From Carboxylicivirga caseinilyticus (lineage in GTDB: Bacteria > Bacteroidota > Bacteroidia > Bacteroidales > Marinilabiliaceae), in NCBI GenBank assembly GCA_025499705.1, contig JAFMVE010000015.1:1-64000 (forward strand): a DNA stretch of 64,000 nucleotides, in the 5' to 3' direction. The position numbers and the translations under genes were made by a program. Position 1 is the stretch's first letter; every line of letters starts with the position of its first letter. The notes beneath the pieces were generated by a model. The model was given only the letters and a program-made list of their open reading frames with translations. It was not told the origin of the DNA and did not search any database. Below are positions 956 to 3,200 of this stretch, piece after piece.

Positions 956-983
956 TTGAGCCCGATTTGTTTTACTACTTTTG
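956..983 (+). promoter_or_regulatory. promoter of the corA leader transcript
   Basis: The -7 box TACTTTTG (976-983) matches TAnnTTTG exactly, and a TTG lies at 956-958 with a 17-base spacer. Transcription should start near 989-990, about 20 nt before the upstream ORF. The whole leader described at 1011-1110 would therefore be in the mRNA. Confidence 0.55.
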
Positions 984-1010: not shown

Positions 1011-1061
1011 ATGGACGAAGGCCCCGGAAATAGTACAATAAAAATATTAATCTTCCTGTAA
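1011..1061 (+). CDS. 16-codon leader peptide (uORF) of corA
   Basis: An ATG at 1011 opens a frame of 16 codons closed by TAA at 1059-1061. The peptide is MDEGPGNSTIKILIFL: two acidic residues and a proline directly after the start, then a hydrophobic tail. Acidic residues and prolines right after the start are the features linked to ribosome destabilisation at low Mg2+ in the E. coli mgtL leader peptide (known mechanism; its operation here is inference). The ORF spans segment 1 and enters segment 2 of the RNA structures in the next entry, so translating it would change leader folding. Whether it is translated cannot be told from sequence alone. Confidence 0.5.
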   Translation: MDEGPGNSTIKILIFL

Positions 1062-1110
1062 GGGGCTTTATCGGCTTCCTTGCAGGCTAATGATGTAAGG
1101 AGGCACTACA
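1011..1110 (+). promoter_or_regulatory. corA 5' leader with mutually exclusive hairpins, SD-sequestering
   Basis: Four segments can be read directly. Segment 1 (1018-1025, AAGGCCCC) pairs with segment 2 (1062-1069, GGGGCTTT), 8 pairs. Segment 3 (1074-1084) pairs with segment 4 (1094-1104), 11 pairs including two G-U, loop 1085-1093; segment 4 contains the Shine-Dalgarno AAGGAGG. Segment 3 can instead pair with 1057-1065, because TGTAAGG occurs both before it and after it. The 1:2 + 3:4 form hides the SD and the 2:3 form exposes it. Such a strong SD is itself unusual in Bacteroidota. I do not recognise it as an M-box or any other known riboswitch. Confidence 0.6.
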
Positions 1111-2040
1111 ATGCTAAAAATCTTCAAAACATTCGGAGGTTATGTTGAAATCAACGAGCCTAAAAATGAATGCTGGATTAATGCCAATAATCCAACTACC
1201 GATGAAATTAAAAGACTTACTGATGAGTTTGGTATGCCAATGGATATTGTTAACGATATTCTGGATCAGGATGAACGACCACGTATTGAATTTGATGATC
1301 AGTGGACATTAATAATAATGCGAATTCCGGTTAGAGCGCATGATCTGCGTGTTCCCTTTTATACCATACCTTTGGGGATATTCATTAAAGATAATTATAC
1401 ACTTACGCTTTGTTTGCAGGATAATGAAGTGTTACCTGCAGAAGGTCCATCGCCTTTTCGAGATCAGTATCAACAGATAACAGATGGAGTGAATTTTATT
1501 CTTCGTTTATTCTTGCGTTCCGGTTGGTTGTATTTGAAGTATTTAAAACAGATTAATCAGATTACTGCTTCTATTGAACAGGATCTGGAAAAATCGATTA
1601 AGAATAAAGAACTGAATAAGTTACTTTATATGGAAAAGTGCCTTGTGTATTTTATTACATCAATAAAAGGTAACGAAATGGTTCTGGCACGCTTGAGAAA
1701 TTCCAGAAAAATTACTTCCGAGATCAACGAAGATCTGCTTGAAGATGCCATGATTGAGAATAAGCAGGCCCTGGAAATTGCCCAAATATATTCCGATATT
1801 CAAAGTGGTATGATGGATGCATTTGCTTCCGTTATTTCAAATAACCTGAATGTGGTGATGAAACAATTGACGCTTATTTCAATTATTTTAATGATACCCA
1901 CTTTAATAGCAAGTTTTTATGGGATGAATGTTCCTAACTATATGGAAAATTGGCAATGGGCAATGCCTGCTATTTTGCTTGGATCACTGGTTCTTTCAAT
2001 TCTGGGAGTTCTTTTATTTCGCAAAAGGCAGTGGTTTTAA
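1111..2040 (+). CDS. corA: CorA-family Mg2+ transporter
   Basis: This 309-residue inner-membrane protein belongs to the CorA (MIT) family, homopentameric channels that import Mg2+ (and sometimes Co2+ or Ni2+). The signature Y-G-M-N is at residues 270-273, at the end of the first of two C-terminal transmembrane helices, and is followed by the usual short loop and second helix. The N-terminal 240 residues are the acidic, helical cytoplasmic funnel. The length is normal. The ATG at 1111 is preceded by TAAGGAGG, and a structured leader with a uORF lies directly upstream. A terminator follows at 2064-2094. The next gene is a CNNM/CorC-type protein, so the pair forms a likely Mg2+ homeostasis locus. 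Confidence 0.95.
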   Translation: MLKIFKTFGGYVEINEPKNECWINANNPTTDEIKRLTDEFGMPMDIVNDILDQDERPRIEFDDQWTLIIMRIPVRAHDLRVPFYTIPLGIFIKDNYTLTLCLQDNEVLPAEGPSPFRDQYQQITDGVNFILRLFLRSGWLYLKYLKQINQITASIEQDLEKSIKNKELNKLLYMEKCLVYFITSIKGNEMVLARLRNSRKITSEINEDLLEDAMIENKQALEIAQIYSDIQSGMMDAFASVISNNLNVVMKQLTLISIILMIPTLIASFYGMNVPNYMENWQWAMPAILLGSLVLSILGVLLFRKRQWF

Positions 2041-2138: not shown

Positions 2139-3200
2139 ATGATTTTACTGCTGGCCTACCTTTTCTTAGCTCTTTTTGTTTCGTTTTTGTGTTCCATAAT
2201 GGAATCCGTTTTATTATCCACACCTCAGGCATTTCTGCTTGTAAAACAAGAAAAAGGAAATTCGTGGGCCGGGCAATTTATTGAATTTAAATCCAATGTT
2301 GATAAACCTTTGTCAGCAATTTTGTCATTAAATACTGTTGCTCATACTATTGGAGCTGCAGGTGTTGGTGCTCAGGCGGTAAAAGTTTTTGGTGAAGCTT
2401 CATTTGGAATTGTTTCGGCAATACTTACCATTTTGATTCTGATCGTTACTGAGATCATTCCCAAAACAATCGGAGCAAGGTATTGGAGGAATCTGGCCGG
2501 TTTTACTTCTTTTACTATCCGATTGATGATAATAGTTACTTATCCGTTGGTAATCATGTCAGCTTTTATCACCAAAATATTTTCTAAGAATTATAAAGAG
2601 AATGTAGTAAGCAGGGAAGAGATAGCTGCTCTGGCCAGTATTGGAGCAGATGAAGGTGTTTTTTCTGATAAGGAACATAAAATTATTCAAAATATTTTGC
2701 GGCTTAAAAATATTAAGGTAAAAGAAATAATGACTCCGCGTGTGGTAATTACATTGGCCAGCGAAGAAATGACTCTTGGTGAATTTTTTAAAAACAAAGA
2801 TTTTTTGAAGTTTTCAAGAATACCAGTCTATTCAGGTAATGATGAAAATATTACCGGTATTGTCTTTCTGCAAAACGTCTATGAAAAACTGGCTGATGAT
2901 AAGCATGATGTCAGGCTAAAAGAGATTAAAAAAGAAGTTCAGTTTTTCCCAAGTCATATGGAACTGTTCTCAATATGGGAGAATTTACTTGATAAGCATC
3001 AGCATATGGCAGTAATTGTCGATGAGTATGGCGGATTGGATGGTATTGTTACGATGGAAGATATTATTGAAACACTTCTTGGATTGGAAATTGTTGATGA
3101 AAACGATACCATTGTTGATATGCAGAAATATGCCAGGGAACGGTGGGCTAATCGCCAGACAAAATTTATCATGCTCGAAAACCTGGGAGATAAACAGTAA
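2139..3200 (+). CDS. CNNM/CorC-family (DUF21 + CBS) membrane protein
   Basis: The protein has 353 residues. The N-terminal 140 or so contain three to four hydrophobic helices of a DUF21/CNNM domain, including the polar stretch EIIPKTIGARYW typical of the family. A CBS pair follows from about residue 185 (VKEIMTPRVV; then VIVDEYGGLDGIVTMEDIIE). CNNM/CorC proteins take part in Mg2+ or Co2+ efflux, with the CBS pair binding ATP-Mg. It lacks the extra C-terminal CorC_HlyC domain of longer relatives, which is normal for this short type. It follows corA in the same direction but behind a terminator. TATCTTTA just upstream is a weak -7 box of its own. Confidence 0.9.
   Translation: MILLLAYLFLALFVSFLCSIMESVLLSTPQAFLLVKQEKGNSWAGQFIEFKSNVDKPLSAILSLNTVAHTIGAAGVGAQAVKVFGEASFGIVSAILTILILIVTEIIPKTIGARYWRNLAGFTSFTIRLMIIVTYPLVIMSAFITKIFSKNYKENVVSREEIAALASIGADEGVFSDKEHKIIQNILRLKNIKVKEIMTPRVVITLASEEMTLGEFFKNKDFLKFSRIPVYSGNDENITGIVFLQNVYEKLADDKHDVRLKEIKKEVQFFPSHMELFSIWENLLDKHQHMAVIVDEYGGLDGIVTMEDIIETLLGLEIVDENDTIVDMQKYARERWANRQTKFIMLENLGDKQ

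Follow-up and report, generated by a model that had tools for sequence, protein, structure and literature searches.

A short leader with an early-acidic uORF and two competing helices precedes Mg2+ importer genes in Bacteroidota and is a likely translational attenuator

We analysed the region in front of corA in a 64,000-nucleotide stretch of DNA from Carboxylicivirga caseinilyticus (contig JAFMVE010000015.1, positions 1 to 64,000), hereafter the window. The leader and the gene contain the following features:

976..983, + strand: promoter -7 box TACTTTTG, a pattern match at 976 to the Bacteroidota -7 motif TAnnTTTG
1011..1061, + strand: uORF encoding the leader peptide MDEGPGNSTIKILIFL, by translation from ATG at 1011 to the stop codon TAA at 1059-1061
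1014..1019, + strand: acidic codons Asp2-Glu3 (GAC GAA), where conservation of the peptide is highest
1023-1025, + strand: Pro5 codon of the uORF, kept in close relatives
1018..1025, + strand: segment 1 (AAGGCCCC), able to pair with 1062-1069; relatives give no support for it as a working element
1055..1065, + strand: segment 2 (CCTGTAAGGGG), overlapping the uORF stop codon; partner, segment 3
1074..1086, + strand: segment 3 (GCTTCCTTGCAGG); partner, segment 2 or segment 4
1094..1104, + strand: segment 4 (TGTAAGGAGGC), containing the SD-like AAGGAGG at 1097-1103; partner, segment 3
1111..2040, + strand: corA, encoding a CorA-family Mg2+ transporter of 309 aa (Pfam CorA, E 4.8e-50)

The window corA scored under the curated cut-off of the NCBIfam corA equivalog, and its product was 90% identical to the CorA of Carboxylicivirga linearis, the nearest named relative among 26 loci. 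Downstream of corA, positions 2139-3200 encode a CNNM/CorC-type protein (Pfam CNNM + CBS); this adjacency was seen in 1 of the 26 relatives' loci (L008), counting the fetched flanks only. An initial annotation had described a 16-codon uORF before corA, which was borne out, and four segments folding either as 1:2 + 3:4 or as 2:3. All four segments are present in the window leader, and only 2:3 and 3:4 stand out. Hairpin 2:3 folded at -17.0 kcal/mol (z -4.4) and hairpin 3:4 at -16.6 kcal/mol (z -3.9), each better than 200 of 200 shuffles, whereas the fold of the 1:2 region was weak (-13.0 kcal/mol, z -1.8). The predicted fold of the entire leader was 1:2 + 3:4, at -34.9 kcal/mol (z -2.3). Since hairpins 2:3 and 3:4 share segment 3, they are mutually exclusive. 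No terminator-like site was found in 940-1160, which points to translational control rather than intrinsic termination, and the predicted promoter at 976-983 makes a transcription start downstream of 1061 unlikely.

CorA relatives were collected from 71 family, 198 order and 395 phylum genomes (overlapping sets) and from named contigs. A uORF was scored as early-acidic when it began M[DE] and held at least two acidic residues at positions 2-5. Of 125 distinct upstream regions, 78 contained such a uORF; 50 rounds of dinucleotide shuffling of the 125 regions yielded 5.4 on average and never more than 9. The working set comprised 79 leaders: two (L067 and L130) were added by eye despite missing the criterion, one (L113) was removed as chance, and at two loci (L110 and L017) one uORF was picked by eye from two candidates each. 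After these two additions and one removal, 46 of the 125 regions were without a leader. In this by-eye-adjusted set, the leader was present in 25 of 27 relatives whose CorA was at least 63% identical to that of the window, in 52 of 79 at 39-55% identity, and in 2 of 19 at 34-38%. Within the window, 2 of 38 genes matched the uORF criterion, one of them corA; the second CorA of the same genome (L001) had no such uORF near its start, and an acidic 21-codon frame 280 nt upstream of it was judged chance. A control on other genes (276 genes, 75 matches) was set aside because corA genes were included in it. By these comparisons, the early-acidic uORF is conserved in corA leaders beyond chance.

Residue 2 was D or E in 79 of 79 leaders and residue 3 in 76 of 79, although, two rows aside, leaders had been selected on these very residues. 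Among the 25 close relatives, residue 2 was Asp or Glu throughout and Pro5 was present in every one, encoded by CCG, CCC, CCT or CCA, with all four letters at the third base. The acidic and proline-containing start that the initial annotation had singled out in the peptide was thus retained. Leader peptides fell into the types MDEGP-, MDDYH-, MDDYY- and MDDS/MDDP-. The 12 uORFs of a second alignment (A2) carried DD and lacked Pro, and showed whole-codon indels in a Tyr run. Codon 2 was GAC in 71 of 79 leaders and in 11 of the 12 A2 rows, which hints at a constraint at the codon or nucleotide level, while codon 3 varied freely among GAT, GAC and GAA; GAA, GAC and GAT were all found at codons 2-3 of the 79 leaders.

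On a CorA tree of 95 rows (FastTree, some long branches flagged), the presence and absence of the leader needed 10 changes. Leaders were scattered across most of the Bacteroidota part of the tree, with leaderless groups nested inside. The 15 loci of family code f136, whose CorA was 47-49% identical to that of the window, were without a leader, and the tree, which held 12 of the 15, placed the group among leader-bearing CorA. The uORF of L113, an f136 locus, was judged chance, as was the 40-codon frame of L053, the sole criterion match among the 16 CorA relatives L044-L059 (Bacilli, Clostridia or unnamed).

The competing helices were assessed with a swap test, in which the pairing of a segment with its own partner was compared with its pairing with partners from other species. 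Three groups were used: the 25 close relatives, the 12 A2 leaders (family code f124, assignment tentative) and 29 MDDYH-like leaders. Both 2:3 and 3:4 were better with their own partner in each of the three groups (p 0.0005, the floor). For 1:2, the values were p 0.016, 0.997 and 0.63 in the close relatives, A2 and the MDDYH-like group, respectively, and the control pairing 1:3 gave p 0.028, 0.92 and 0.62. A further control pairing, 2:4, beat swapped partners in A2 (p 0.005) and in neither of the other groups, which indicates that relatedness inflates the swap test in A2.

Alignment A1, which comprises the 25 close relatives with a few divergent rows poorly aligned, was scored against 500 shuffles. 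For 3:4, 90.6% of cells were paired, and 9 cells in 4 pairs had changed on both sides; shuffles scored as high in 0 of 500 for doubly changed cells, 16 of 500 for doubly changed pairs and 10 of 500 for further pair types. For 2:3, 92.9% of cells were paired, 3 pairs showed double changes (5 cells), and the corresponding shuffle counts were 1, 40 and 147 of 500. Sliding 3:4 by one column gave 10 double-change cells in 5 pairs, but far fewer paired cells. For 1:2, 63.5% of cells were paired, compared with 63.9% in shuffles. The A1 and swap-test figures are indicative, the sequences being related and not independent; on A1, support is good for 3:4, weaker for 2:3 and lacking for 1:2. Conservation and covariation, by which the initial annotation had proposed to judge the leader, were accordingly seen for the uORF, for 3:4 and less clearly for 2:3, but not for 1:2.

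In a further test, the switch formed by segments 2, 3 and 4 was compared with 100 shuffles per leader, with 7 of the 79 leaders omitted for unusual spacing. Of the 72 leaders tested, 55 had a shared-segment switch at p <=0.05: 24 of 25 among the close relatives, 9 of 12 in A2 and 22 of 35 elsewhere. The window leader gave p 0.01, the lowest attainable value; 17 of the 72 leaders exceeded 0.05, one of which has no switch.

These results bear on a reading like that of Salmonella mgtQ, close to the one in the initial annotation, which had made the 1:2 arm inside the uORF a working part. A slow or stalled early ribosome would mask segment 1, block 1:2 and let 2:3 free the start, and finished or absent translation would leave corA OFF. 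The window leader does fold as 1:2 + 3:4, none of the 25 close relatives departs from the CCC of segment 1, not even at the third base of codon 4, although the second base of that codon varies, and mgtQ itself operates with a 1:2 arm (PMC8092293). However, 1:2 did about as well as its 1:3 control in the close relatives (p 0.016 against 0.028) and failed in the other two groups, its A1 pairing was at shuffle level, and its fold in the window was weak. We therefore consider a working 1:2 arm unlikely, and the arm in the uORF did not survive comparison with the controls, whereas the exclusive pair 2:3 and 3:4 did.

The SD-like sequence in segment 4 was then compared with other gene starts. GGAGG or AGGAG preceded the start in 1 of the 46 window ORFs of at least 150 aa, that of corA alone, and was present in 42 of the 79 corA leaders. 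Ribosomes of Bacteroidia reportedly do not read SDs, except at rpsU and, in some orders, at rpsR (PMC9976891; PMC3155529). The AAGGAGG that the initial annotation had called a strong SD is present, but it is unusual in a phylum reported to ignore SDs and is not to be taken without more ado for an ordinary SD. Two readings of segment 4 are possible: conservation for the sake of pairing, or a further regulated SD. The A2 leaders differ in sequence, and their segment 4 is ATTTTGAAATG, which lies across the start codon and contains no SD. The corA leaders are candidates for further genes, beyond rpsU and rpsR, in which an SD-like sequence may matter.

We next considered the position of the uORF relative to the promoter and to segment 2. 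A promoter box lay 19-32 nt before the uORF ATG in 66 of the 79 corA leaders, whereas shuffled controls gave a mean of 4.2 and a maximum of 8 (20 rounds, 79 leaders). Relative to the base that follows the uORF stop, a free search placed the first base of segment 2 within the range from 12 nt upstream to 9 nt downstream for 59 of 72 leaders. In 64 of the 72, segment 2 overlapped the stretch that a terminating ribosome would occupy on a generous estimate, a count that has no null model for position and in which gaps of about 50 nt force some overlap of stop and segment 2. Because the uORF stop abuts or sits inside segment 2, a terminating ribosome would cover segment 2. Equilibrium folding with a ribosome mask was run on 75 leaders (4 of the 79 were omitted for unusual spacing), and the mean openness of the start region was 0.36 without a ribosome, 0.41 when the ribosome was early and 0.34 when it was at the stop. 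Compared with the early ribosome, a ribosome at the stop lowered openness in 23 leaders of the 75, raised it in 9 and left it unchanged in 43 (Wilcoxon p 0.009). For the window leader, the values were 0.46, 0.64 and 0.54, respectively. In this model, the folding weakly backs a switch.

To look beyond corA, we used a covariance model (R1) built from alignment A1, that is, from corA leaders only. In the 71 genomes, under Infernal's stricter filters, R1 gave two strong matches besides corA, both before MgtE genes (Pfam MgtE_N, CBS, MgtE), with E-values of 9.2e-17 and 1.4e-10; matches of 3.7e-4 or weaker were taken as chance (L161-L170 inspected). The MgtE survey covered 30 of the 91 MgtE places in the order and the two R1-found loci. 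In the nearer MgtE clade (at least 54% identical to P0002, plus L157 and L160), 10 of 13 loci had the leader, with R1 E of 4.7e-18 to 4.3e-5. None of the 19 more distant MgtE loci scored below R1 E 0.5, and one uORF among them was judged chance. A promoter box lay within 75 nt in 9 of the 10 MgtE leaders, at 24-28 nt in five.

A search of the 198 genomes for the promoter-plus-uORF pattern returned 17 places in 16 genomes and 1 control match. Nine places lay before corA and three before mgtE loci, all of them known already; the others lay before an MgtA-type ATPase (L271), before MgtE_N-CBS/Nramp genes (L270 and L272) and before an OprB-type porin (L261), and one, L259, 11 nt before an ORF that by eye resembles RibD, was judged chance. 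The L271 product matched the NCBIfam magnesium-translocating P-type ATPase at E 5.5e-192, as a partial protein scoring under the curated cut-off. At L270 and L272, an MgtE_N-CBS protein is followed by an Nramp-family transporter, for which Mg2+ transport is putative. With R1, L270-L272 had E-values from 1.6e-4 to 3.4e-6, and the porin locus 0.006. In the switch test, L271, L272 and all 10 MgtE leaders reached p 0.02 or lower, and the porin locus gave p 0.36; L270, whose likely start is about 60 nt 3' of the uORF, was left out of these p values. Of the five MgtA-type loci in the 198 genomes, one carried the leader, the already known one in genome G252. The promoter-uORF start before the porin is MDEGPATRLLTVSMER, in a genome (G133:C2) that also has a leader before an Nramp operon; it is possibly an outer-membrane Mg2+ route, or chance.

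Other patterns were less selective. The pattern TANNTTTG...ATGGAYGANNANNN matched in 149 of the 198 genomes, too loose a result and mostly chance. The pattern ending in ATGGAYGAYTAYYA found 16 places in the 395 genomes, with 3 control matches; 14 lay before corA loci already listed, and L254 and L255, before unrelated ORFs, were judged chance.

CorA, MgtE, MgtA/B and Nramp-related proteins are named as the four classes of bacterial Mg2+ importer in PMC4072509, and the leader was found before members of all four. On sequence grounds, the same leader recurs before unrelated Mg2+ importers across the phylum, probably switching uptake on when low Mg2+ fails ribosomes. The initial annotation's reading of an Mg2+-responsive attenuator thus kept its leader peptide, its exclusive 2:3 and 3:4 and its link to Mg2+, and lost the 1:2 arm; occurrence before MgtE, MgtA-type and Nramp-type genes makes the Mg2+ link stronger than that annotation could know. 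The response to Mg2+ itself is our inference.

A location before Mg2+ importers and alternative folds would also be expected of a riboswitch that senses Mg2+ by direct binding to the RNA, with the uORF there by coincidence. Against this, none of 4227 Rfam families, presumably including the M-box, matched at gathering score in the window, and at a relaxed threshold the best match in 940-1140 was irrelevant (E 3.5). Outside the helices, conservation is strongest in the first uORF codons, and the stems differ freely in sequence between leader groups. A riboswitch is therefore very improbable here. The M-box (ykoK) riboswitch precedes corA, mgtE, mgtA and mgtE-nramp operons (PMC4072509), so the classes of importer downstream are the same as for the present leader; the M-box is a metal-binding aptamer, whereas the leader is about 110 nt long, has a conserved uORF and gave no aptamer match.

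The uORF could instead sense another early-elongation input, such as Asp-tRNA supply, the initiation rate or a factor such as EttA or bL31, with Mg2+ as one of several inputs. The near-constant GAC at codon 2 (71 of 79 leaders, 11 of 12 A2 rows) would suit this, and EttA acts on E. coli mgtL (PMC11282234). However, codons 2-3 can be GAA, GAC or GAT, and the target genes, bar the one doubtful porin, belong to Mg2+-importer classes, which fits Mg2+ rather than amino-acid supply. We regard this explanation as improbable, though less so than a riboswitch.

The reading we prefer, and consider reasonably likely from the sequence evidence, is a translational attenuator in which the fate of the ribosome on the short acidic uORF controls translation of Mg2+ importers. 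When Mg2+ is sufficient, the ribosome would read the full uORF, halt on or just before segment 2 and cover it; segment 3 would then pair with segment 4 and close the region before the corA start (OFF). At low Mg2+, the ribosome would be lost or stalled at the early Asp/Glu(/Pro) codons, segment 2 could pair with segment 3, leaving the corA start exposed, and CorA would be made (ON). We infer uORF translation, abortion at the acidic codons, the role of Mg2+ as signal and which way the switch acts. Acidic N-termini are reported to destabilise ribosomes at low Mg2+ in E. coli mgtL (intrinsic ribosome destabilisation; PMC11282234), and a role of acidic codons is reported for Salmonella mgtQ (PMC8092293); if low Mg2+ aborts such N-termini here, an ON state at low Mg2+ is sensible for an Mg2+ importer. 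The same source reports that in E. coli two acidic residues alone are insufficient for unstable translation (PMC11282234).

The attenuator resembles several known systems. Salmonella mgtQ is an 8-codon uORF with Asp2, Pro4 and Glu5 in the mgtC-mgtB intergenic region; its RNA folds as 1:2 + 3:4 or as 2:3, 3:4 hides the RBS of the Mg2+ transporter, control is translational and the acidic codons are required (PMC8092293). According to that account, mgtQ and the corA leader share an early-acidic uORF, the 2:3 versus 3:4 design and a 3:4 helix over the start region. The segment 1:segment 2 pairing of mgtQ is possible in the window but unsupported by relatives of the corA leader. Moreover, mgtQ is intergenic, lies before mgtB in the mgtC operon and belongs to another phylum, whereas the present leader is 5', stands before corA, MgtE, MgtA-type and MgtE_N-CBS/Nramp genes, in most cases downstream of a promoter box, and has a Bacteroidota start region (SD-like or SD-less). 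Convergence between the two seems likely.

In the mgtL leader of E. coli and Salmonella mgtA, early EPDP codons that fail at low Mg2+ likewise turn an importer on (PMC11282234). It is reported to act through Rho-dependent termination, which is disputed for E. coli (PMC11552253), whereas the present leader is predicted to sequester a translation start and had no terminator-like site in 940-1160. In corL, a uORF in the corA leader, efficient uORF translation similarly lowers corA (PMC11552253, PMC6429828). These two papers confine the corA motif to Gammaproteobacteria and place Rho termination near position 220 of the Salmonella corA leader; the window leader had no match among the 4227 Rfam families, which may include that motif. 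No Mg2+-responsive leader in Bacteroidota was found described in the open-access literature, as the initial annotation had held, while gammaproteobacterial functional relatives were found, including Salmonella mgtQ, a described counterpart that it had left unnamed. We class the leader as a variant of uORF-controlled Mg2+-importer leaders and not as a member of the mgtQ or mgtL families.

We lean, with slightly less assurance than for the attenuator at corA, towards a phylum-wide Mg2+-sensing leader of Bacteroidota that is unrelated to riboswitches, in which failure at acidic codons 2-3 opens a CorA, MgtE, MgtA or Nramp-type importer. It would be a counterpart of the M-box in function and a second invention of the mgtQ/mgtL trick, as a module that has passed from one unrelated gene to another, and SD-like starts may be part of how it works. 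If this is true, ribosome stability at low Mg2+ serves as an Mg2+ sensor in two distant phyla, and acidic codons 2-3 are a directly testable sensor. The leader would then also offer a short portable element for Mg2+-regulated expression in Bacteroidota and a ready flag for Mg2+ importers there.

Several individual loci showed variations of the leader. At L014 (same region as L039), the CorA was 76% identical to that of the window and the uORF was absent; remnants of segments 2-4 were visible by eye, so the leader looks decayed. At L069 and L070, a long insertion separated a uORF of the leader type from corA, 253-265 nt further on; at L069 the insertion held the start of a small ORF (MFNRNFLKSF...). 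Genome G647 carried two corA copies (L089 and L130), each with its own leader, MDEGPNKNNLKY and MDAGPKYFNLTN, respectively.
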